A stretch of 64,000 bases of DNA from Curtobacterium citreum (GTDB lineage Bacteria; Actinomycetota; Actinomycetes; Actinomycetales; Microbacteriaceae): NCBI RefSeq assembly GCF_006715175.1, contig NZ_VFMQ01000001.1:620001-684000 (forward strand), written 5' to 3'. Position 1 is the first letter of the stretch. Each line of letters begins with the position of its first letter. This document shows, one piece after another, positions 2,541-35,475 of this stretch. The translations under genes were made by a program, and so were the position numbers. Below the pieces are notes generated by a model. That model was not told the DNA's origin and did not search any database. It was given only the letters and a program-made list of their open reading frames with translations.

Positions 2541-4180
2541 CCCCGCCACGCGCCTCCGGTCAGAAGGCGGTCCCGACCACCCCGGGACGCACGGTGCCCG
2601 CCCGTCGTGTCGTCGTCGTCGGTGGTGGCATCAGCGGACTCGCGTCCGCCGCACTGCTCGCGCGGGAGGGCTACGCCGTCACGGTGCTCGAGCAGCGCGA
2701 CCAGCTCGGTGGCCGCGCCGGTTCGTGGGAGCGCGACGGCTTCCGGTTCGACACCGGGCCGTCGTGGTACCTCATGCCCGAGGTGTTCGACCACTTCTTC
2801 CAGCTGCTCGGTACCTCCGCGGACGCCGAGATGGAGCTGATCAAGCTCGACCCGGGCTACCGCGTGTACTCCGAGGGGCACGACGAACCGATCGACCTGC
2901 TCGCCGACAGAGAGGCCAACATCGCGCTCTTCGAGTCGATCGAGCCCGGTGCCGGCGACCGCATGCGGAAGTACCTCGACTCGGCGGCCGACACGTACGC
3001 GATGGCCGTCCGCCGGTTCCTGTACACGACCTTCGAGGACCTCACGAAGCTCGCGGCGCCCGACGTGCTCCGTCGTCTGCCGAAGCTCGCGCGCCTGCTG
3101 CTCCAGCCGCTGTCGACCTTCGCGTCGAAGGCCGTCCGGGACCGCCGGCTGTGGCAGGTCCTCGGCTACCCGGCGGTGTTCCTCGGCACGAGCCCGTACG
3201 CGGCGCCGAGCATGTACCACCTGATGAGCCACCTCGACCTGGCCGACGGAGTGCTCTACCCGAAGGGCGGGATCACCGAGGTCATCGCCGCCGTCGAGCG
3301 CGTGGCCCGGCGCGAGGGCGTCACCATCGCCACCGAGTCGCCGGTCGAGCAGATCCTCGTCGAGGACGGCCATGTCACGGGTGTCGTCCACCGCGACGCG
3401 ACCGGTGCCCGGCACACCCTGCCGGCCGACCTCGTCGTGAGCGCGTCGGACCTGCACCACACCGAGCTGCACCTGCTGGGCCCCGAGCACCGCACCTACC
3501 CCGAGGCGCACTGGCGGAAGCGCGATCCGGGTCCGAGCGCCGTGCTCGCGTACCTCGGCGTCGACGGCCCCGTCCCCGGGCTGCTGCACCACACCCTCGT
3601 GTTCACCGAGGACTGGCAGGCGAACTTCGGCGCGATCTTCGGCAAGGACCGGCACGTGCCGGACCCCGCGTCGATCTACGTGTGCGCGCCCTCGCTCACC
3701 GACGACTCCGTCGCGCCCGAGGGCACGAGCAACCTGTTCGTCCTCGTACCGCTGCCGGCCGACCTGTCCATCGGCAAGGGCGGCATCGACGGTGCCGGCG
3801 ACGCCGAGGTCGAGCGGATCGCCGACCGGGCGATCGACGTCATCGCCGAGCGCGCCGGTGTCCCCGACCTGCGGGACCGGATCCGGGTGCGCCGGACGAT
3901 CGGCCCGCAGGACTTCGCCGACGACTACAACGCCTGGAGCGGCTCGATGCTCGGGCCGGCGCACACGCTGGCGCAGAGCGCGTTCTTCCGCGAGAAGAAC
4001 GTCTCGGGCAGGGTCCAGGGGCTCTACTACGCGGGCGCCTCGACGACCCCGGGCATCGGGTTGCCGATGTGCCTGATCAGCGCCGAGGTCCTGCTCAAGC
4101 GCATCCACGGCGACACGAGCACCGAACCGCTGCCGACCCCGCTGCCCTCGCCCGTGGGTTCGTCGCGGACCGCTGGCTGA
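2537..4180 (+). CDS. crtI: Phytoene desaturase (CrtI)
   Basis: FAD-dependent desaturase converting phytoene stepwise to lycopene. The N terminus has the Rossmann FAD motif VVVVGGGISGLASAALLAREG followed by LGGRAGSW, and the C terminus has the CrtI signature GLYYAGASTTPGIGLPMCLISAE. The start is the GTG at 2537, which overlaps the crtB stop and precedes the FAD motif by about 25 residues (547 aa in all); the frame runs further upstream only as a shadow of crtB. Downstream it overlaps crtYe by one base. Lycopene as product is inferred from the lycopene-elongase and cyclase genes that follow. Confidence 0.95.
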   Translation: MTPPRASGQKAVPTTPGRTVPARRVVVVGGGISGLASAALLAREGYAVTVLEQRDQLGGRAGSWERDGFRFDTGPSWYLMPEVFDHFFQLLGTSADAEMELIKLDPGYRVYSEGHDEPIDLLADREANIALFESIEPGAGDRMRKYLDSAADTYAMAVRRFLYTTFEDLTKLAAPDVLRRLPKLARLLLQPLSTFASKAVRDRRLWQVLGYPAVFLGTSPYAAPSMYHLMSHLDLADGVLYPKGGITEVIAAVERVARREGVTIATESPVEQILVEDGHVTGVVHRDATGARHTLPADLVVSASDLHHTELHLLGPEHRTYPEAHWRKRDPGPSAVLAYLGVDGPVPGLLHHTLVFTEDWQANFGAIFGKDRHVPDPASIYVCAPSLTDDSVAPEGTSNLFVLVPLPADLSIGKGGIDGAGDAEVERIADRAIDVIAERAGVPDLRDRIRVRRTIGPQDFADDYNAWSGSMLGPAHTLAQSAFFREKNVSGRVQGLYYAGASTTPGIGLPMCLISAEVLLKRIHGDTSTEPLPTPLPSPVGSSRTAG

Positions 4181-12003: not shown

Positions 12004-12065
12004 CGCACAACGGAAAGCACTCCGCACCACGCAATCGCGTGGCACGGAGTGCTTTCCCTTGTGCG
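12004..12065. terminator. Very long bidirectional terminator hairpin
   Basis: Two roughly 30-base arms with a few mismatches (starting CGCACAACGGAAAGCACTCC) meet around an AAT-type loop at about 12033-12035. It lies between two convergent units, DUF3151 (+) and lacZ (-), and can serve both. Confidence 0.75.
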
Positions 12066-12068
12066 CAG

Positions 12069-12104
12069 GTGCACCGCACCACGCAGGTGCACCGCACCAC
12101 GCAG
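12069..12104. repeat. 18-bp tandem duplication
   Basis: Two exact 18-base copies of GTGCACCGCACCACGCAG (12069-12086 and 12087-12104) stand right after the long hairpin and 25 bp before the lacZ stop. The copy sequence resembles the loop-proximal part of the hairpin arm, so it may have arisen by slippage. Confidence 0.8.
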
Positions 12105-12129
12105 GTGCCGCCATCGGCGGCCCGGCGCC

Positions 12130-26167: not shown

Positions 26168-27271
26168 GTGGGTCCGCAGCGCACCGCACCCCCCACGGTC
26201 TACGACGTCGCGTCCGAGGCCGGCGTCTCCATCGCGACGGTCTCGCGCGTGCTCCGCACGCCCGACGCGGTCCGCGAGGGCACCCGCCACAGGGTGCAGG
26301 CGGCGATCCGGAGCCTCGGCTACGTGCCCTCGGGCACCGCGCGCGCACTGGCCGGACGCCGGACCGGCGTGGTCGGGCTCCTGCTGCCCGGGTTCGACGT
26401 CGTACCGGACGAGCGTCCCGACCTCGTCACCGACGGCGGCGTCCGGGTGGTCGACGACCGACGGCACGTGACACAGCCGTTCTCGTCGAACCTGTACTTC
26501 GACGAGGTCCTGCGCGGCGCCGAGACCGAGGCGTGGCAGCGCGGCCTGGCGCTCATGGTGGCGGCGGGGCGGGGGTCCTCCCGGGACGTGCTCGTCAACG
26601 ACGTCGCCGGCCGGGTCGACGGGCTCGCGGTCCTCGCCCAGACCGTGCCGGACGACCTGCTCGAGCACGTCGCCCGCCGTGTCCCGGTGGTGGTGCTCGC
26701 GGACGACCGGCGGTCGCACGGGTTCGACTCGGTGAGCGTGGACAACGCGGCGGGGATGCGGACCCTCGCGTCGCACGTGATCGGCCGGCTCGGGATCCGG
26801 TCGCTCGTGTACCTGGCCGGGCCGATCGACTCCCCGGACGACATGGAGCGCTCGGCGGGGTTCCGGCAGGCGCTCGACGACCACGACGTGCCGGCCCGGT
26901 CCGTGCGGGTCGTGCACGGTGACTTCGGCCGGGCCCGAGCGCGGGAGCTCGCGGCGGGGCTGCTCGACGGTGCCGAGGTGCCGCGGGCGATCGTCTGCTC
27001 GAACGACCAGTCCGCGCTCGGGGTGCTCGACGCGGCGGGGGCCCGCGGGCTCCGGGTGCCGGACGACCTGGTGGTGACGGGGTTCGACGGCATCGACGCC
27101 GGACGGTTCTCGAGCCCGCGGTTGACGACCGTGCACCAGCCGATGGGGGAGCTCGGGCGTGCCGCGGTCCGGGCGATCGTCGACCGGCTCGAGCGGCGGG
27201 AGGGGCCGCCGCGGGCGTTGCGCCTGCCGGTCGAGGTGCTGCTGCGCGAGAGCTGCCCGCCCGCGCTGTAG
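26168..27271 (+). CDS. LacI family transcriptional regulator
   Basis: 367-residue repressor. The LacI HTH is at residues 10-35 (TVYDVASEAGVSIATVSRVLR), the hinge helix at SGTARALAGRRT, and a periplasmic-binding-type effector domain follows, ending in VVTGFDGIDAGRFSSPRLTTVHQP. An insertion of about 20 residues (DERPDLVTDGGVRVVDDRR) lies early in the effector domain. The start is GTG 26168 and the codons around it overlap a degenerate GGAGGC-family element. The LacI-type operator at 27756, in front of the beta-glucoside transport operon, makes that operon the likely target, with a glucoside as inducer (inference). Confidence 0.9.
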   Translation: MGPQRTAPPTVYDVASEAGVSIATVSRVLRTPDAVREGTRHRVQAAIRSLGYVPSGTARALAGRRTGVVGLLLPGFDVVPDERPDLVTDGGVRVVDDRRHVTQPFSSNLYFDEVLRGAETEAWQRGLALMVAAGRGSSRDVLVNDVAGRVDGLAVLAQTVPDDLLEHVARRVPVVVLADDRRSHGFDSVSVDNAAGMRTLASHVIGRLGIRSLVYLAGPIDSPDDMERSAGFRQALDDHDVPARSVRVVHGDFGRARARELAAGLLDGAEVPRAIVCSNDQSALGVLDAAGARGLRVPDDLVVTGFDGIDAGRFSSPRLTTVHQPMGELGRAAVRAIVDRLERREGPPRALRLPVEVLLRESCPPAL

Positions 27272-27328
27272 CGGCGGAGTGCCCCGGGCACCCGCCCCCT
27301 CCTCTCCGCCGCGACCAGCCCCGGCCCT

Positions 27329-27416
27329 CGAGGTGCCGAGATCCTGGACTCTCGATGCTCCGGGCGGCATCGAGTGGCACCCCGACGAGCAGCACGCGGC
27401 GAGTCGTGGCACCTCG
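27329..27416. terminator. Nested inverted repeats downstream of the LacI gene
   Basis: Outer arms CGAGGTGCC (27329-27337) and GGCACCTCG (27408-27416) enclose a smaller hairpin CTCGATGC (27351-27358) / GCATCGAG (27367-27374). A branched terminator for the LacI transcript is plausible. Confidence 0.45.
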
Positions 27417-27445
27417 GCGGGGTGTTGATGCGCGTGTCGGGAGAT

Positions 27446-27698
27446 GAGCGCGCCACATCCGGCGCGCTCGACCCTCGCCGCCGACGATCTGTACCCGCGC
27501 CGCGAACGCGAGCGGCACGTCGTGCACACTCGGCGGCCGACGATCGATGAGTCGGGTGGTGTGACGAGCGCGCCACATCCGGCGCGCTCGACCCTCTCCG
27601 CCGACGATCTGTGCACCCGCCGCGCACGCGAGCGGCACGTCGTGCACACTCGGCGCCATTCGCCGCGCACGCGAGCGGCACGTCGTGCACGCTCGAGG
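27446..27698. repeat. Direct repeats (120-bp period) upstream of the beta-glucoside operon
   Basis: A roughly 90-base unit at 27446-27535 recurs at 27566-27655, offset exactly 120 bp and with only a few differences. The last part of the second unit recurs once more at 27661-27695 (43-bp offset). Each full unit opens with an inverted repeat (GAGCGCGCC, six-base loop, GGCGCGCTC), and all three copies carry CGAGCGGCACGTCGTGCAC, which contains a short palindrome. No convincing open frame covers the repeats. The function is unknown. Confidence 0.85.
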
Positions 27699-27755
27699 CC
27701 CCGCGTTCGAACGGCGTCCCACCCCGGGAAACAACACGGCCGGTTGCATCCCGTG

Positions 27756-27771
27756 ATGTAAGCGCATACAT
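27756..27771. promoter_or_regulatory. LacI-type operator upstream of the beta-glucoside operon
   Basis: ATGTAAGCGCATACAT is a near-perfect 16-base palindrome with the central GCGC and flanking T/A pattern of LacI-family operators. It lies 39 bp before the binding-protein ATG and so overlaps or follows the promoter. The LacI-family gene at 26168 is the obvious candidate regulator. Confidence 0.75.
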
Positions 27772-27809
27772 TGTCCGGGTACCCACTCGACACGGAGGTC
27801 GACCGAGCA

Positions 27810-29549
27810 ATGACGCTTCCCCCACAGCGCACGCCGGAGCGCGCCGCGCCGCGCACCCGCGCCCCCGAGCGGTCGCGGCGCCGCGGCCGCCTTGCCGCCG
27901 CGCTCGCCGGCATCGCCGTCGTGGCCCTCGCCGCCACCGGCTGCAGCATCCAGGTCCGCTCCCAGCCGGACCCGAGCATCGGCAAGGACACGATGCTCAT
28001 CAACGCGGACCGCGGCAACCCGCTGTTCGACCGCAACTTCAACCCGTACATCTCGAACGCCCGCACCGCGAGCAAGTGGATGTACGAGCCCCTCATCGAG
28101 ATCAACCCCCTCGACGGCAAGGGCACCCCGTGGCTGGCGAGCTCGTGGAGCCAGCCGGACGCGAAGACCATCGACATGACGATCCGGAAGGGCGTCGAGT
28201 GGTCCGACGGCAGGCAGTTCAGTGCGGAGGACGTCGTCTTCACGTTCGACCTGCTCCAGAAGTTCCCCGCGATGGACATCAAGGGTGCCTGGCAGCACAT
28301 CGACCGCATCGAGCGGGACGGTGACCACGTCGTCTTCCACCTGAAGAGCGACGACGTGCCGAGCCTCAACATCATCGGTGCGACGTACATCCTCCCCGAG
28401 CACCACTACGGCAAGATCAAGGACCCCACCACCTGGCGTGACCCGGACCCCGTCGGCACCGGCCCGTTCGTGCTCGGCAACTACTCCGACCAGCAGTACT
28501 CGATGGACAAGAACCCGCGGTACTGGCAGGCGGACAAGATCGCCATCGAGCACCTGATCCTGCCGGCGACGAACACGCAGCTCGACACCGTCACGCGCGG
28601 CTACGACTGGGCGTACTCGTTCATCTCCGACGTCGAGGGCACCTGGGGTGCGGCGTCCCCCGACAACAAGTGGTGGTTCCCGGCCGGCGGTGTGATCGGC
28701 CTCATCCCGAACCTCACGAAGGCGCCGTACAGCGACGTCAACGTCCGCAAGGGCATCTCGTACGCGCTGAACCGCGACGACATCGCCGAGACCGCGTCCG
28801 AGGGCAACCTCAGCGCCGCGGGACAGACCGGCCTGATCCTGCCGAACCAGGAGCAGTACCTCGACCCGTCGATCCCCGACAAGGGCATGATCACGCAGGA
28901 CACCGACCGGGCCCTCGCTGAGTTCGCCAAGTCCGGGTACACCCAGCAGGGCGGCAAGCTCGTCAAGGACGGCAAGCAGCTCGAGATCAGGCTCATGACC
29001 GCGAACGGCTACTCGGACTGGCTCCGCGCCGCGCAGCAGGTCCAGCGCGACCTCGGGAAGATCGGCATCAAGGTCGACATCCAGGCGCCGCAGCCCGCGG
29101 GGTACCAGCAGAACATCAACAACGGCCAGTTCGACATGGCGATGGGCGGCATGGGGAACGGCGACGTCTTCCAGGCCTACAACTCGCTGCTGTCGAGCGA
29201 CTTCTACCAGCCGGTCGGCAAGTCGACCGTGAACAACTTCGAGCGGTACCGGAACGCCGACACGCAGCAGCTCCTCGACGCGTACAAGGCGACGACCGAC
29301 AAGGCCGAGCAGCAGCGGATCCTGAACCAGCTGCAGGGGATCGTGTACGACGACCTGCCCGTGATCGGCATGTACTACGGCGGGCTCTGGGGCCTGTTCA
29401 ACACCGGCAAGTTCGTCGGCTGGCCGAGCGCGGAGGACCCGTACATGGCACCGCAGAACTACGACTCGGCACCGCTGCTCATCTTCACGAAGCTGCGACT
29501 CAGAGACAGTGAAGCGGGCCGGAAGATCATGGAGGAGCAGGCCAAGTGA
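27810..29549 (+). CDS. Family 5 ABC substrate-binding lipoprotein (Dpp/Opp type)
   Basis: 579-residue extracytoplasmic binding protein. A basic N terminus leads into a hydrophobic run and lipobox LAATGCS (Cys at about residue 45). The mature protein has the family 5 pattern: KWMYEPLIEINPLDG, WSQPDAKTIDMTIRKGVEWSDGRQFSAEDVVFTFDLL and, near the end, RILNQLQGIVYDDLPVIGMYY. The ATG at 27810 has GGAGG at 27794-27798. Family 5 proteins bind peptides but also oligosaccharides; the GH1 gene in this operon and the LacI control make beta-glucosides or cello-oligosaccharides likely (inference). Confidence 0.9.
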   Translation: MTLPPQRTPERAAPRTRAPERSRRRGRLAAALAGIAVVALAATGCSIQVRSQPDPSIGKDTMLINADRGNPLFDRNFNPYISNARTASKWMYEPLIEINPLDGKGTPWLASSWSQPDAKTIDMTIRKGVEWSDGRQFSAEDVVFTFDLLQKFPAMDIKGAWQHIDRIERDGDHVVFHLKSDDVPSLNIIGATYILPEHHYGKIKDPTTWRDPDPVGTGPFVLGNYSDQQYSMDKNPRYWQADKIAIEHLILPATNTQLDTVTRGYDWAYSFISDVEGTWGAASPDNKWWFPAGGVIGLIPNLTKAPYSDVNVRKGISYALNRDDIAETASEGNLSAAGQTGLILPNQEQYLDPSIPDKGMITQDTDRALAEFAKSGYTQQGGKLVKDGKQLEIRLMTANGYSDWLRAAQQVQRDLGKIGIKVDIQAPQPAGYQQNINNGQFDMAMGGMGNGDVFQAYNSLLSSDFYQPVGKSTVNNFERYRNADTQQLLDAYKATTDKAEQQRILNQLQGIVYDDLPVIGMYYGGLWGLFNTGKFVGWPSAEDPYMAPQNYDSAPLLIFTKLRLRDSEAGRKIMEEQAK

Positions 29550-30526
29550 AGTACATCCTGCAGAAACTCGTCCTCTTCGTCCTCACCCTCTGGGCCGCGG
29601 TCACGCTGAACTTCGTGCTCCCGCGCCTCATGCCCGGCAGCCCGTCCGACGCGGCGCTGGCGAAGCTCAGCCAGAACGGCCCCGTCACGGACGCGACCAA
29701 GAAGGCCATCGAGGCGCAGCTCGGCGTCCCCTCCGGCAACCTGTGGGACCAGTACGTCAGCTACCTGCACCAGGTCGTCACCCTCGACTTCGGCACGAGC
29801 TACACGTTCTACCCGCAGCCCGTCGGTGACCTGGTCGGCCGGGCCTTGCCCTACACGCTCGTGCTCGTCGGCACGGTCACGGTCCTCGCGTTCGTGATCG
29901 GCACGCTCATCGGCGTCGCGGCGGCGTGGAAGCGCGGCTCCTGGCTCGACTCGCTCCCGACCCTGTCCGGCAGCTTCATGTCGACGTTCCCGTACTTCTG
30001 GACGGCGCTCCTGCTGCTGTTCTTCCTCGGCTACGTCCTGCACTGGTTCCCGACCACCGGGGCGTCCTCGGCGACGAGCGTCCCCGGCTGGAACGGCGAG
30101 TACGTCGGCGACGTGCTCCTGCACGCGATCCTGCCGGCGGTCACGATCCTCGTGACGAGTCTGGGCGGCTGGATCATCGGCATGCGGAACGCCATGATCA
30201 ACACCCTCGGCGACGACTACGTCACCTTCGCCGAGGCGAACGGCCTCCGCGGCCGCACGGTCGCCGTCCGGTACGCCGCACGCAACGCGATCCTGCCGAA
30301 CCTGACCGGCTTCGGCCTGGCCCTCGGCGGTGTCGTCGGCGGCTCGGTCCTGGTCGAGCAGGTGTTCGGCTACCCGGGCATCGGCTACCTGCTGTTCAAC
30401 GCCGTGATCGGGCAGGACTACCCGCTCATGCAGGCCCTCTTCCTGATGATCACCGTGTCGGTGCTCATCGCCAACTTCATCGTGGACGTCCTCTACGGCG
30501 TCCTGGACCCGAGGACGCGCCGATGA
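29546..30526 (+). CDS. ABC permease, DppB type
   Basis: 326-residue inner-membrane permease with six membrane segments, the family-type N terminus (YILQKLVLFVLTLWAAVTLNFVLPRLMPGSP) and an EAA loop in DDYVTFAEANGLRGRTVAVRYAARNAILP. The GTG at 29546 overlaps the binding-protein stop. Its last six codons and stop lie within the first partial unit of a 62-bp tandem duplication, so its C-terminal sequence PRTRR recurs in two following mini-ORFs. Confidence 0.92.
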   Translation: MKYILQKLVLFVLTLWAAVTLNFVLPRLMPGSPSDAALAKLSQNGPVTDATKKAIEAQLGVPSGNLWDQYVSYLHQVVTLDFGTSYTFYPQPVGDLVGRALPYTLVLVGTVTVLAFVIGTLIGVAAAWKRGSWLDSLPTLSGSFMSTFPYFWTALLLLFFLGYVLHWFPTTGASSATSVPGWNGEYVGDVLLHAILPAVTILVTSLGGWIIGMRNAMINTLGDDYVTFAEANGLRGRTVAVRYAARNAILPNLTGFGLALGGVVGGSVLVEQVFGYPGIGYLLFNAVIGQDYPLMQALFLMITVSVLIANFIVDVLYGVLDPRTRR

Positions 30527-30588
30527 CGACCAACTCGCGATGGGCGGCGTGCTCTGCCCACAACCACCACCCGAGGACGCGCCGATGA
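30523..30588 (+). CDS. Mini-ORF, 21 residues, first copy
   Basis: ATG at 30523 overlaps the DppB-type gene stop (ATGA) and has GAGGA ten bases upstream. The product begins MTTNSRW, contains one Cys and three His, and ends HHPRTRR. Its TGA overlaps the ATG of an identical second copy. Whether a stable peptide is made is unknown; the frame may exist only to couple translation from one permease gene to the next. Confidence 0.45.
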   Translation: MTTNSRWAACSAHNHHPRTRR

Positions 30589-30650
30589 CGACCAACTCGC
30601 GATGGGCGGCGTGCTCTGCCCACAACCACCACCCGAGGACGCGCCGATGA
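30585..30650 (+). CDS. Mini-ORF, 21 residues, second identical copy
   Basis: Exact copy of the preceding mini-ORF, created by the 62-bp tandem duplication. It starts at ATG 30585 inside the stop of copy one and ends at TGA 30648-30650, overlapping the ATG of the DppC-type permease. The result is a chain of four reading frames joined by ATGA overlaps. Confidence 0.45.
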   Translation: MTTNSRWAACSAHNHHPRTRR

Positions 30651-31603
30651 CGAACATCAAGGCACCCGACGCAACCGTCGCAGTACGAACGCAAGACACG
30701 CAGCACGACCAGCAGGCCCCCTCCAAGCTCCGGTCAGCAGGACGACAGTTCGGTGTCGTCTGGAGCAACACCAAGGCCCGCGTCGGCATCTGCATCCTCG
30801 CGTTCTTCGTCCTCGTGGCGATCGCCGCCCCGCTCCTCGCCCCGTACGGCGCCAGCCAGAACGGCTTCGCGCGGAACGCCGACGCCACCTGGGCGCACTG
30901 GATGGGCACCACCGCCGCCGGCGAGGACGTCCTCTCCCAACTGATCTACGGCGCCCGGGTCTCCGTGCTCGTCGGCGCGGTCGCGGGCTTCCTGTCCACG
31001 CTCGTCGCCGTCGCGATCGGTCTGAGCTGGGGCTACATCCGCGGCTGGGTCGCCGAGGTCATCGGGTTCATCGTCAACCTGTTCCTCGTCATCCCGGGTC
31101 TGCCGCTCATGATCGTCATCGCGGCCTACCTGCAGAACGGCGGCATCGCGGTCATCATCGCCGTGATCGTCGTGACCGGTTGGGCCTGGGGCGCGCGCGT
31201 GCTCCGCTCCCAGACGCAGTCCCTCCGGAGCCGCGACTTCGTCACGGCGGCGCAGTTCTCCGGTGACGGTGCGACCCGCATCGTGTTCCGCGAGATCCTG
31301 CCGAACATGACGAGCCTCATCGTCGGCAGCTTCTTCGGTGCGGCGACGAGCGCGATCCTCGCCGAGGCGGGCCTGGAGTTCCTGGGGCTCGGCGACTCGT
31401 CGATCGTCAGCTGGGGCACGATCCTCTACTGGGCGCAGAACTCGAACGCGCTGCTCACCGGCCAGTGGATCCTGCTGTTCGCCCCCGGTCTCTGCATCGC
31501 CCTCCTGGCGATGAGCCTCACCCTCATCAACTTCGGCGTCGACGCCGTGTCCAACCCGCGGCTGCGCGAGGGCGCGCGCCGCAAGAAGGAGGCAGCAGCA
31601 TGA
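30647..31603 (+). CDS. ABC permease, DppC type
   Basis: 318-residue partner permease: polar N terminus, then six membrane segments from VGICILAFFVLVAIAAPLLAPY, the DppC-type loop THWMGT-like region AHWMGTTAAGEDVLSQLIYGARVSVLVG and an EAA loop in RDFVTAAQFSGDGATRIVFREILPN. The ATG at 30647, behind the third GAGGA of the tandem duplication, is preferred to the in-frame ATG at 30602 inside a repeat unit. Its stop overlaps the ATPase ATG. Confidence 0.9.
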   Translation: MTNIKAPDATVAVRTQDTQHDQQAPSKLRSAGRQFGVVWSNTKARVGICILAFFVLVAIAAPLLAPYGASQNGFARNADATWAHWMGTTAAGEDVLSQLIYGARVSVLVGAVAGFLSTLVAVAIGLSWGYIRGWVAEVIGFIVNLFLVIPGLPLMIVIAAYLQNGGIAVIIAVIVVTGWAWGARVLRSQTQSLRSRDFVTAAQFSGDGATRIVFREILPNMTSLIVGSFFGAATSAILAEAGLEFLGLGDSSIVSWGTILYWAQNSNALLTGQWILLFAPGLCIALLAMSLTLINFGVDAVSNPRLREGARRKKEAAA

Positions 31604-33390
31604 GCGGCCAGACACCCGACGTGACCAGCGACGGCCTGGAGGCCCGTGGCGGCGCCGCCACGCGCCTCCCGTCCGACGCCACGCACGCGACGCAGGACGT
31701 CCTGCTCGACGTCCGCGACCTGTCGGTCGTCTACGAGTCGGCCGGCCAGACGGCCGTCCAGGCCGTCGACCACGTGTCGTTCAGCCTGCGCAAGGGCGAG
31801 TTCGTCGGCCTGGTCGGCGAGTCCGGCTCGGGCAAGTCGACCCTCGGCTACGCGCTCACCCGGCTGCAGAAGCCGCCGGCGCGGACCAACGGCGGCAGCA
31901 TCGTCTTCGCCGGGAGCGACATCCGCGACCTCGACGACGAGGCGCTGCGCCAGCAGCGGCAGGGCGGATTCGCGATGGTGCTGCAGTCCGGCATGAACGC
32001 GCTCAACCCGGTGCGGACCGTCCGCAACCACTTCGTCGACGTGTTCAAGGCCCACGGCCACGTGCCGCGCGAGCGCTGGGACGCGCGGATGCGGGAGCTC
32101 GTCGGCAAGGTGAAGCTGCCCGAGACGATGCTCGCGCGGTACCCCGGGGAGCTCTCCGGCGGCATGCGCCAGCGCGTCTCGATCGCCCTCGCGCTGTCGC
32201 TCGAGCCGCAGCTCATGGTGTTCGACGAGCCGACGACGGCCCTCGACGTGCTCGTGCAGCACGCCGTGATGGACACGATCATCGAGCTGCAGCGCTCCGA
32301 GGGCTTCACGGCGATCCTGATCAGCCACGACCTCGGCATCGTGCTCGAAGCGACCGAGCGCGTGCTCGTCATGCACGAGGGACGGATCGTCGAGGACGGT
32401 CGCTCGCTCGAGGTCCTCCGCGACCCGCAGGACGACTACACGAAGATGCTGCTGTCGCACTACGCGGACCCGCGCGCCGCGGTGGTCTCGCTGCCCGGCT
32501 TCCCCGACCGGTCGCTCCGTTCGTCCGAGGGGGCGACGCGGCAACAGACGACCTCGTCGTTCAGCACCGTCGGGTCCCGCGAACGCAGCGCCGCCCGCAA
32601 CCCGATCGTCGTCGACCACCTCGTGAAGACGTACCCGGCGCCCCGCCGCGGCGAACAGCCCGTGCAGGCCGTCCGCGACGTGTCGTTCACGCTCGAGCCC
32701 GGGCAGTCGCTCGCCCTCGTCGGCCAGTCCGGCTCGGGCAAGTCGACGATCGCGAAGATGCTCACCGGTGTCGAGCAGCCGACGAGCGGCACGGTGCGCT
32801 TCGGCGACACGGACGTGGCTCGTCTGGGCAGGAGGGGCCTGAAGGACCTGCGCTCCGAGGTGCAGATGGTGTTCCAGGACCCCTACGCGGCGCTCAACCC
32901 GCTGCACACCGTCGAGTACATCCTGTCCCGGCCGATCGCGAACTACACGAGACTCCGCGGCCGCGATGCCCGTCGCCGGATGCTCGAGATCCTCGAGACC
33001 GTGGGCCTGGCGCCCGTCGAGCAGTTCGCGCAGAAGCTCCCGCACCAGCTCTCCGGCGGGCAGCGGCAGCGCGTGGTGATCGCTCGGGCGCTCGCGAGCG
33101 ACCCGCAGGTGATCATCGCCGACGAGCCCGTCTCGATGCTCGACGTGACGCTGCGCGCGGGCGTGCTCGCGCTGCTCGAGGACCTGCGCGAGCAGTGGGG
33201 CGTCTCGCTCCTCTACATCACGCACGACCTGCTCAGCGCGCGGCTCATCACCGACGACATCATGGTGCTGCACGACGGCGCCGTGGTGGAGCGGGGTCGC
33301 ACGGCCGAGGTGCTGCAGCACCCGCAGGACGACTACACGGTCGCGCTGCTGGACGCGGTGCCGAACCCGCGGCGGACACTGCTCGCATGA
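31600..33390 (+). CDS. ABC ATPase, fused DppD-DppF type
   Basis: Cytoplasmic energy subunit of 596 residues with two complete cassettes in one chain. First: Walker A GESGSGKST, signature LSGGMRQR, Walker B LMVFDEPTTALDV. Second: Walker A GQSGSGKST, signature LSGGQRQR, Walker B VIIADEPVSMLDV. The connecting stretch (about residues 290-335) is polar. The ATG at 31600 overlaps the permease stop. The first 35 residues are not conserved domain; part of them (LEARGGAATRLPS) is encoded by an in-frame copy of the GGAGGC palindrome family. Confidence 0.93.
   Translation: MSGQTPDVTSDGLEARGGAATRLPSDATHATQDVLLDVRDLSVVYESAGQTAVQAVDHVSFSLRKGEFVGLVGESGSGKSTLGYALTRLQKPPARTNGGSIVFAGSDIRDLDDEALRQQRQGGFAMVLQSGMNALNPVRTVRNHFVDVFKAHGHVPRERWDARMRELVGKVKLPETMLARYPGELSGGMRQRVSIALALSLEPQLMVFDEPTTALDVLVQHAVMDTIIELQRSEGFTAILISHDLGIVLEATERVLVMHEGRIVEDGRSLEVLRDPQDDYTKMLLSHYADPRAAVVSLPGFPDRSLRSSEGATRQQTTSSFSTVGSRERSAARNPIVVDHLVKTYPAPRRGEQPVQAVRDVSFTLEPGQSLALVGQSGSGKSTIAKMLTGVEQPTSGTVRFGDTDVARLGRRGLKDLRSEVQMVFQDPYAALNPLHTVEYILSRPIANYTRLRGRDARRRMLEILETVGLAPVEQFAQKLPHQLSGGQRQRVVIARALASDPQVIIADEPVSMLDVTLRAGVLALLEDLREQWGVSLLYITHDLLSARLITDDIMVLHDGAVVERGRTAEVLQHPQDDYTVALLDAVPNPRRTLLA
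31632..31675. repeat. GGAGGC-family palindrome inside the ATPase gene
   Basis: A palindrome centred on GGCGCC (31651-31656) has a perfect 18-base core and GGAGGCC / GCGCCTCC outer arms with a few mismatches. It matches the dispersed intergenic palindromes in this window yet lies within codons 11-26 of the ATPase gene and keeps the frame. Confidence 0.75.
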
Positions 33391-34259
33391 GCACCCTCCA
33401 CGCGTTCCCCGTCGTCGCGCCGTTCGGCCACCTGCCCACCCCCGAGGGAGTCGACACCGTCGGCATCGACCTGCCCGTCGGGCGGCTCACCGCCTACCGC
33501 GTGGTCCCGGACGGGCCGTCGAAGGGCGTCGTGCTCGTCGTCCCCGGGTACACCGGCTCGAAGGAGGACTGGCGCACCTTCATGCCGCTCCTGCGCGAGG
33601 CCGGCTGGACCGCGGTCGCGATCAGCCGCCGCGGCCAGGCCGACTCCGCGGCGCCGACGAGCCCGTCGGACTACTCGCTCGAGGAAGAAGCGGCCGACGT
33701 CATCCGGGTCGCCGCCCTGCTCGACGACGGCGCCCCCGTGCACCTGATCGGCCACTCGCTCGGGGGTGTGATCGCACGCGCCGCGGTCATCGCGTCCCCG
33801 CAGTCGTTCCGGAGCGTCGTGCAGTTCTGCTCCGGGCCGTACGGCTGGCCCTACCGCAAGGTCGCCGAGCTGACGATCCTGCACGACACCGGCGGGAACC
33901 TCCGTCAGCTGTTCGACTCGACGAACCCGCTGTGGGCCGGGCGTCCGGACGAGGAGCTCCCCGACGACGCCCGGATGGTCCGCGACCGCTTCGACGCGAC
34001 GAGCCCCCTGAGCGTCGTCGCCGGCGGGCACATCCTCGAGGACCACACCGACTCCTCCGCCGAGCTCCGCGCGACCGGGCTGTCGGTCCTCGTGGCGCAC
34101 GGCGAGTGGGACGGTGCCTGGCCGATCCCGTGGCAGCGGCAGATGGCGGAGGACACCGGCGCCCGGTACGAGGTCGTCCCAACGAGCTACCACGGCCCCC
34201 ACGTCGAGAACCCCGGCGCGACCATCGCGCTGTTCGACGACTTCCTGTCGGCGCACTGA
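33387..34259 (+). CDS. Alpha/beta hydrolase
   Basis: 290-residue hydrolase fold protein. The nucleophile elbow GHSLGG (residues about 124-129), an oxyanion-type VVPGYTGSKEDW, an acid in VLVAHGEWDGAW and a terminal catalytic-type His in SYHGPHVENP are all visible. It has no signal peptide, so it acts in the cytosol. Coupled by ATGA overlap to the ATPase gene and followed by a beta-glucosidase, it may cleave acyl esters from imported glycosides (inference). Its stop region CGGCGCACTGA is duplicated directly downstream. Confidence 0.82.
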   Translation: MSTLHAFPVVAPFGHLPTPEGVDTVGIDLPVGRLTAYRVVPDGPSKGVVLVVPGYTGSKEDWRTFMPLLREAGWTAVAISRRGQADSAAPTSPSDYSLEEEAADVIRVAALLDDGAPVHLIGHSLGGVIARAAVIASPQSFRSVVQFCSGPYGWPYRKVAELTILHDTGGNLRQLFDSTNPLWAGRPDEELPDDARMVRDRFDATSPLSVVAGGHILEDHTDSSAELRATGLSVLVAHGEWDGAWPIPWQRQMAEDTGARYEVVPTSYHGPHVENPGATIALFDDFLSAH

Positions 34260-34284
34260 CGCCGGCGCACTGAAAGGACCCATC

Positions 34285-35475
34285 ATCACCACGCTGCAGT
34301 TCCCCGACGGCTTCCTCTGGGGTGCCGCCACCGCCGCCCACCAGATCGAGGGCAACAACGTGAACTCGAACTGGTGGGTGCACGAGCACGAACCGGACAC
34401 CACCATCGTCGAGCCCTCCGGCGACGCCGCGGACAGCTACCACCGCTACCGCGAGGACATCCGCATCGCCGCCGACCTCGGCCTGAACTCCTACCGGTTC
34501 AGCATCGAGTGGGCGCGCATCGAGCCCGAGCGCGGGTTCGTCTCCCGCGCCGAGGTCGACCACTACCGCCGGATGGTCGAGGCCTGCCACGACGCCGGCA
34601 TCGAACCGATCGTCACCCTCATGCACTTCACCGTGCCGCGCTGGTTCGAGCGCGACGGCTTCTGGCGCGCCGACGACGCCGCGGACCTGTTCGCCCGCTA
34701 CACCGAGGCCGCGCTGCCCGTCGTGCAGGACGGGGTCCGCTTCGTCTGCACGATCAACGAGCCGAACATCGCCGCGATGCTCGCCGGCGGCGAGGACGCC
34801 GCGAACCTCGTCGCGTACGGCCTGCCGAACCCCGACCTGCACGTGGCGGACCAGCTGCTCGCGTCGCACCGGCGCTCCCGCGAGGTCCTGTCGCAGGTCC
34901 CCGGCATCCAGTCCGGCTGGACCATCGCCACGCAGGCGTTCCGCGCGAACGGCGAGCCCGGGTCCGAGGAGATGCTCCGCGAGTACGGGTACCCGCGCGA
35001 CGACTGGTACCTCGAGCAGGCCGCCGGCGACGACTTCCTCGGTGTGCAGGCCTACACCCGCACCTTCATCGGTGCCTCGGGCCCGGTGCCGGTCGCGGAC
35101 GACGTCGAGACGACCCTGACCGGGTGGGAGTTCTACCCCGAGGCCTCGGCCGACGGACTCCGCAGCGCGTGGGAGCTCTCCGGTCACGTCCCGCTGATGA
35201 TCACCGAGAACGGGATCGCCACGGCCGACGACTCCCGCCGGGTCGCCTACACGCAGGGCGCCCTCGAGGGCATCCACCGCTGCATCGAGGACGGCATCCA
35301 GGTGCTCGGCTACCAGCACTGGTCCCTGCTCGACAACTACGAGTGGGCCTCCGGCTACCGGCCGACCTTCGGGCTCGTGGCGTGGGACCGGGAGACGTTC
35401 GCGCGGACGCCGAAGGACTCGGCGCGCTGGTACGGCCGGGTCGCGCAGGCGAACGCGCTCGAGACGCGTCGCTGA
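34285..35475 (+). CDS. GH1 beta-glucosidase (6-phospho or free) with apparent ATC start
   Basis: Retaining glycosidase of about 396 residues, on the short side for GH1. Opens TTLQFPDGFLWGAATAAHQIEG; acid/base Glu159 in CTINEPN and nucleophile Glu308 in MITENG; GYQHWSLLDNYEWASGY near the end. No ATG, GTG or TTG lies in frame near the N terminus: the codon six bases after the AAAGGA ribosome-binding site (34273-34278) is ATC at 34285, where an ATG would give the expected MTTLQFPDGF. It may start at ATC, at CTG 34270, or the base may be a mutation or error. It should hydrolyse the glucosides imported by the preceding ABC system. Confidence 0.85.
   Translation: MTTLQFPDGFLWGAATAAHQIEGNNVNSNWWVHEHEPDTTIVEPSGDAADSYHRYREDIRIAADLGLNSYRFSIEWARIEPERGFVSRAEVDHYRRMVEACHDAGIEPIVTLMHFTVPRWFERDGFWRADDAADLFARYTEAALPVVQDGVRFVCTINEPNIAAMLAGGEDAANLVAYGLPNPDLHVADQLLASHRRSREVLSQVPGIQSGWTIATQAFRANGEPGSEEMLREYGYPRDDWYLEQAAGDDFLGVQAYTRTFIGASGPVPVADDVETTLTGWEFYPEASADGLRSAWELSGHVPLMITENGIATADDSRRVAYTQGALEGIHRCIEDGIQVLGYQHWSLLDNYEWASGYRPTFGLVAWDRETFARTPKDSARWYGRVAQANALETRR

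Follow-up and report, generated by a model that had tools for sequence, protein, structure and literature searches.

A tandemly repeated 62-bp unit with ATGA-coupled mini-ORFs at the dppB-dppC joint of Curtobacterium

Organisation of the operon and of the dppB-dppC joint

The window is the whole stretch of DNA that was analysed, 64,000 nucleotides of Curtobacterium citreum, from a source genome that consists of one contig of 3,612,036 bases. It contains an operon region (26168-35475) encoding, in this order, a LacI-type regulator, an SBP_bac_5 solute-binding protein, two permeases, a fused double ATPase, an alpha/beta hydrolase and a GH1 glycosidase (Pfam, NCBIfam). The first permease gene, of the dppB/oppB type (29546-30526), matches Pfam BPD_transp_1 (E 1e-40) and has Opp2B as its best NCBIfam match, below the cut-off; the second, of the dppC/oppC type (30647-31603), matches BPD_transp_1 and OppC_N. 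No match reaching an NCBIfam cut-off was obtained for the binding protein and the two permeases, and "dipeptide" is therefore only a family label. Judging from the neighbouring LacI regulator and GH1 enzyme, the substrate is more likely a beta-glucoside or an oligosaccharide than a dipeptide.

The joint between the two permease genes is occupied by an exact tandem repeat (30507-30653; period 62, 2.4 copies, 100% matches, Tandem Repeats Finder score 294), the runner-up among the 40 rows returned for the window scoring only 90. Copy 1 (30507-30568) begins within the dppB tail and is followed by copy 2 (30569-30630) and by a partial third copy of 23 bp (30631-30653), which comprises the tail with its GAGGA and the dppC start. 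The copies hold mini-ORF 1 (30523-30588), whose ATGA overlaps the dppB stop, and mini-ORF 2 (30585-30650), which has an ATGA overlap on both sides; all these features, like both permease genes, lie on the forward strand. The two mini-ORFs have 21 codons each and encode the same peptide, MTTNSRWAACSAHNHHPRTRR. Gene callers usually set their minimum length above 21 codons. At the tail of each unit, the sequence of the last dppB codons and stop is repeated.

Every joint in this chain is an ATGA (30523, 30585 and 30647), and a GAGGA lies 7 nt 5' of each ATG: within dppB (30511-30515), within mini-ORF 1 (30573-30577) and within mini-ORF 2 (30635-30639). These are possible ribosome-binding sites of mini-ORF 1, mini-ORF 2 and the dppC-type gene, respectively. 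A preliminary description of this DNA had reported a 62-bp tandem duplication and, between the DppB-type stop and the DppC-type start, a pair of identical 21-codon frames linked throughout by ATGA, and both points agree with the repeat search and with the sequence. Its remark that 62 is not a multiple of three also holds, in the more precise form that 62 is 2 mod 3, as required for a -4 nt overlap at both ends.

The start of the dppC-type gene was placed at the ATGA at 30647, because in relatives lacking the unit the gene opens at an ATGA. A longest-ORF call puts the start at 30602, inside unit 2, so that the start of this gene as the longest ORF falls within a repeat, and automatic annotation may pick this position; annotators should be warned accordingly. 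The in-frame ATG in unit 2 lengthens the dppC frame by 15 codons (30602-30646), encoding MGGVLCPQPPPEDAP.

Other repeats were observed in the window. Two direct repeats of 103 nt, 90% alike, 120 bp apart and with palindromic parts, lie 5' of the solute-binding-protein gene (27433-27710); four further places in the source genome resemble them at 71-76%, and they may form a dispersed repeat family. At 12064-12108, Tandem Repeats Finder shows 2.5 perfect copies of an 18-bp tandem unit.

Copy number of the unit across Curtobacterium

The junction was compared in 61 Curtobacterium genomes, namely the source genome (G000) and 60 further genomes, of 66 available for the genus. All genome sets contained one genome per species. 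Four genomes (G002, G023, G042 and G043) were left out, being without a full junction match, and G048 was represented as locus L039 (0 units). The unit is absent from 51 genomes, where dppB overlaps dppC directly by ATGA; it is present once in seven and twice in three (the source genome, G026 and G027). All units in the 10 carriers have 21 codons and an ATGA at every joint. Named loci, which are the best 80 of 436 relatives, gave a similar picture for L001-L040: 32 of the 40 have 0 units, seven have one (L004, L007, L013, L017, L025, L030 and L036) and one has two (L011), most of these loci coinciding with genomes of the 61-genome set.

An assembly artefact, considered in the preliminary description as a possible source of the duplication, is ruled out by the finding of two units in three genomes and one unit in seven. 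Across the assemblies read, units are found at the junction in 10 of the 61 Curtobacterium genomes; the two-unit state lies within one contig each in G000 and G027, the G026 assembly comprising about 160 contigs. The coupled-frame anatomy also recurs in every unit found in relatives. The statement that each unit has its own GAGGA is correct for the window but does not extend to two of the 10 carriers (L030 and L036), in which GGGGG replaces GAGGA at the unit end.

Two sequence types of the unit were distinguished, SRW (for example MTTNSRWAACSAHNHHPRTRR) and LTK (MTNNLTKAACCADDNHPRTRR and MTNNITKAACCAHIEHPGARR). The two-copy state is found in both, as SRW in the source genome and as LTK in G026 and G027, so that, most simply, doubling happened more than once. 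The motif AAC(S/C)A and the R-R end recur throughout the Curtobacterium types, with the exception of one that reads AAFSA, phenylalanine replacing the cysteine; HPRTRR is changed to HPGARR in two carriers. A leader peptide that senses cysteine was considered on account of the Cys codons and was rejected, as one carrier has none (MTTTSRWAAFSAHNHHPRTRR).

Gain and loss of the unit on the phylogenetic tree

The tree was inferred with FastTree from 62 dpp loci and four outgroups, using flanks only, with the units removed. It includes L005 (Microbacteriaceae bacterium, 0 units), and L053 was dropped, its anchor having failed. Presence of the unit changes 9 times on this tree for 10 carriers. Shuffled labels gave a mean of 9.49 changes, with 9 or fewer in 813 of 2000 shuffles; presence is therefore about as scattered as expected by chance. 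Gain or loss of the unit is frequent, and loss across direct repeats would give the same scatter as mobility.

The repeat had been suggested to be either a translational spacer that tunes the ratio of the two permeases or a phase-variable repeat whose copy number changes expression. In a dosage device of this kind, extra joints would lower or raise DppC relative to DppB, and copy number would be selected or would switch. This agrees with the presence of 0, 1 or 2 units in different genomes, with the frequent changes on the tree and with the exactness of the 62-bp tandem repeat, exact tandem repeats being a form prone to slippage. However, G026 and G027 (L011 and L219) are 99.7% identical in the upstream flank and 99.6% in the downstream flank, and both have the same two units, which speaks against fast switching. 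DppB and DppC partners normally make up one transporter, and a strong imbalance between them is expected to be costly. Variation of copy number stands as a difference between genomes but is not seen within this near-identical pair, and we consider a dosage device unlikely.

SRW units from the distant clades of L007 and L017 differ at only 2 of 66 bases. The last 150 nt of dppB are 98.0% alike in these two loci, the longer flanks reaching 87.5% and 87.2%, whereas the stretch of dppC directly downstream is only 81.6% alike. The units are thus as similar as the adjoining dppB end and more similar than the downstream dppC stretch, and their likeness may, but need not, reflect transfer.

Search for the unit at other sites

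When a core pattern of 29 bases was searched in the 66 genus genomes, allowing 3 mismatches at most, 13 sites were found in 10 genomes, all at the dppB-dppC junction. Both full copies of the source genome are at the junction, and elsewhere in that genome there are just partial matches of at most 29 bases. Given a single junction in the genus and partial matches elsewhere, the unit is not an interspersed repeat. When the same pattern was applied to 398 family genomes, 10 were matched, including two Curtobacterium at the junction. The other eight belong to other genera, with one site each at 3 mismatches; since the control (the pattern reversed) likewise gave isolated matches in these 398 genomes, the eight sites look like chance. 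A strict doubled-tail pattern was found in at least 2 of the 398 family genomes, a lower bound because altered tails such as those of L030 and L036 are missed.

These results bear on the possibility that the unit is a mobile short element, similar to the MIRUs described in PMC12548453, which inserts at ATGA joints. The coupling logic, as far as that account describes it, is the same; the distribution on the tree is scattered; and the L007 and L017 units are nearly identical beside a divergent dppC stretch. Mobility is nevertheless weakened by the restriction to one site in 66 genomes and by the merely partial matches elsewhere in the source genome, and the equal similarity of the dppB end in L007 and L017 makes transfer unnecessary. 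We regard a mobile element as very improbable.

A scan for chained mini-ORFs in 102 sequences returned 71 rows (overlapping rows included), many of which begin with GTG inside dppB (for example near position 3298 of L001). A chain by itself is weak evidence, and recurrence at one joint is what counts. In Curtobacterium, neither the dppB 3' end nor the dppC start was significantly similar to the core (five local-alignment tests, p 0.08 to 0.77), so a plain tandem duplication of the joint fails to explain the core.

A second version of the unit in the Microbacterium sufflavum genus

At the same junction, the Microbacterium sufflavum locus (L064) has a 59-bp unit with a mini-ORF of 20 codons (3927-3989, MMIPPFPVRLHCVLDPRTRR). 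The last 11 codons of this unit, LHCVLDPRTRR, resemble the DppB tail LYGVLDPRTRR and look like a copy of it. With the strict doubled-tail pattern, which overlooks units with altered tails and thus gives a lower bound, the unit was found in at least 3 of 366 genomes of this genus, two with MMIPPFPVRLHCVLDPRTRR and one with MMILPLPIRLHCVLDPRTRR. Besides L064, locus L217 also has a 20-codon coupled mini-ORF at the dppB-dppC joint in this genus. The lengths 62 and 59 are both 2 mod 3, the single length class that preserves the ATGA chain. As the core of the M. sufflavum-type unit is unlike that of Curtobacterium, a separate origin was assumed.

Among the outgroup loci (L041-L080), those of Frigoribacterium, Labedella and Microbacterium have an ATGA at the dppB stop, and in the two Schumannella loci, L046 and L049, a short gap comes after a TGA at the dppB end. 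The chain scan of these outgroup loci detected a mini-ORF at the dppB-dppC joint in L064 only.

Evidence on translation and RNA structure

For a random G+C-rich 66-mer ending in ATGA on both sides, the probability of an open frame is 0.65, and an open frame alone is consequently weak evidence for translation. Substitutions were counted in the four nearest unit pairs, which showed 10 synonymous differences on 60.7 sites versus 6 non-synonymous ones on 176.3 sites. The resulting pN/pS of 0.21 (Fisher p 0.0014) is based on 16 differences, which are few, and transition bias could mimic part of the signal. When the DppB-like tail was removed, 7 synonymous versus 5 non-synonymous differences remained (p 0.0067, 12 differences). 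The contrast is weaker for pairs between the SRW and LTK types (pS 0.31 and 0.40 versus pN 0.23 and 0.29). The synonymous excess in the nearest pairs suggests that the mini-ORFs are translated.

There is no RNA structure signal in the units, whose folding is no better than that of shuffled sequences (z 0.15 to 0.46, five sequences), and no Rfam match at gathering scores was found in the 64-kb window. An RNA element as the main reading was rejected on these two results.

The preliminary description had also suggested that the unit might be a source of a His/Arg-rich peptide. A working micropeptide, for example a transporter partner or a regulator, would account for the few non-synonymous changes within the nearest unit pairs and for the conservation of AAC(S/C)A and of the R-R end. 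As a fixed trait, however, such a peptide does not hold up: the unit is lacking in the 51 genomes mentioned above, the tail is altered to HPGARR in two carriers and phenylalanine takes the place of cysteine in one. The M. sufflavum-genus version has another core, and part of the tail may be fixed only as a copy of dppB that holds the ribosome-binding site. A functional micropeptide is accordingly rated as quite improbable.

At the opposite extreme, the unit could be a neutral by-product with no translational role, DppC starting de novo and the open frame reflecting chance and recent origin. Open frames of this length are indeed common at this G+C content, and the lack of an RNA structure signal fits such a view. 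The conservation of ATGA at every joint in all carriers, the occurrence of two differently cored unit classes that both fall in the one of three length classes keeping the chain, and the pN/pS ratio all argue against it, and we give it hardly any credence.

The 3' end of dppB itself varies unusually little at synonymous sites. In Curtobacterium (62 loci), synonymous diversity is lower in the last 57 codons (30356-30526 in the window) than in every other dppB stretch of that length (0.106 versus 0.280 for the rest), and the same holds for Frigoribacterium (0.056 versus 0.265; 10 loci). The drop is weaker in Microbacterium (0.270 versus 0.367; rank 19 of 271, 26 sequences). No such drop was seen at the ends of dppA, dppC and the fused ATPase gene, and eight folded sequences gave no consistent folding signal at the dppB 3' end. 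The start of the fused ATPase gene also has a low window (0.130), so strong protein conservation may be a partial cause of the low diversity at the dppB end.

Proposed origin and effect of the unit

In six gene pairs of E. coli and Haloferax, coupling and reinitiation are reported to have been almost lost once the genes were about 20 nt apart, and genes for subunits of heteromeric complexes to be enriched in short overlaps (PMC10666635). A 62-bp spacer between two permease subunits should therefore do harm, except where it forms a coupled frame of its own. Given the coupled-frame anatomy observed here, the unit is read as a tolerated insertion that carries its own coupling, that is, as a natural bicistronic coupler. 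Based on sequence comparison, we estimate a probability of about 0.6 that the unit, which varies between lineages, is an insertion or duplication surviving since its length keeps termination-reinitiation from DppB to DppC.

Each copy consists of a short core followed by a copied dppB end, which supplies the ribosome-binding site and the ATGA and makes the copy a self-contained coupled mini-ORF. In this model, a ribosome ending DppB would restart at mini-ORF 1, next at mini-ORF 2 and last at DppC, so the inserted DNA would leave unbroken a termination-reinitiation coupling that runs directly where no unit is present. Tolerance of the insertion would be the chief consequence, DppC output being changed, upwards or downwards, mildly at most. 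Copies would be easily gained or lost, presumably by slippage or recombination, as a unit has a direct repeat of about 20 bp on either side and two units together make up a 62-bp tandem repeat; loss between the shorter repeats should be easy.

A more far-reaching reading is that of a natural translational coupler of variable copy number, in which translated mini-ORFs of set length arise repeatedly at this joint, in two genera, and are selected to tune or insulate DppC synthesis; we consider this doubtful.

Among operons that otherwise resemble each other, the genomes compared offer a natural series with 0, 1 and 2 coupled mini-ORFs at a single joint, alongside a second version in another genus. 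This series makes the cost per termination-reinitiation step directly testable, and likewise the length of insert that is tolerated by the operon of a multi-subunit complex.

Comparison with known systems

No paper on this junction was among the matches listed for the open-licence literature, which was mostly searched without the genus name. Several described systems share features with the unit. Short ORFs can deliver ribosomes to a coupled gene (review, PMC12548453). The same review describes the mycobacterial interspersed repetitive units, or MIRUs (Supply et al. 1997, cited therein), as apparently mobile repeats, the ORF of which couples at -4 nt and the insertion of which likely has little effect. 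The unit resembles them in that a short repeat brings its own ORF at -4 nt spacing to its neighbour (here by ATGA in 10 of 10 carriers). It differs in that MIRUs, according to the review, are repetitive and seemingly mobile, whereas the core pattern occurs here at one junction only in 66 genus genomes, and in that the tail of the Curtobacterium unit copies the dppB end. The unit is not classed as a MIRU, as it is not interspersed.

The mgtQ frame of Salmonella, located between mgtC and mgtB, is likewise a small ORF that lies ahead of a transporter gene and enhances translation of that gene, but it is reported to work with alternative stem-loops and acidic codons (PMC8092293), whereas the Curtobacterium unit shows no structure signal and the window's unit encodes no acidic residue. 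The minigene of axe-txe (PMC8708949) is another mini-ORF in an operon that affects downstream translation, its frame and distance being important; it has two codons instead of 21, and no ATGA chain is mentioned in its abstract.

Bicistronic couplers (BCD) of synthetic biology and the short "nonsense peptide" nfORF (PMC13255528) are similar in that ribosomes reach the next gene through a short leader frame, within which a ribosome-binding site lies beside the stop. This layout is found in the window as a GAGGA inside each short frame and a stop/start overlap with the next gene; the Curtobacterium unit differs in that it occurs naturally and mid-operon, follows an upstream gene and is repeated. 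By analogy, the unit would work like a MIRU or a BCD leader, yet as a single-locus element with a tail copied from dppB.
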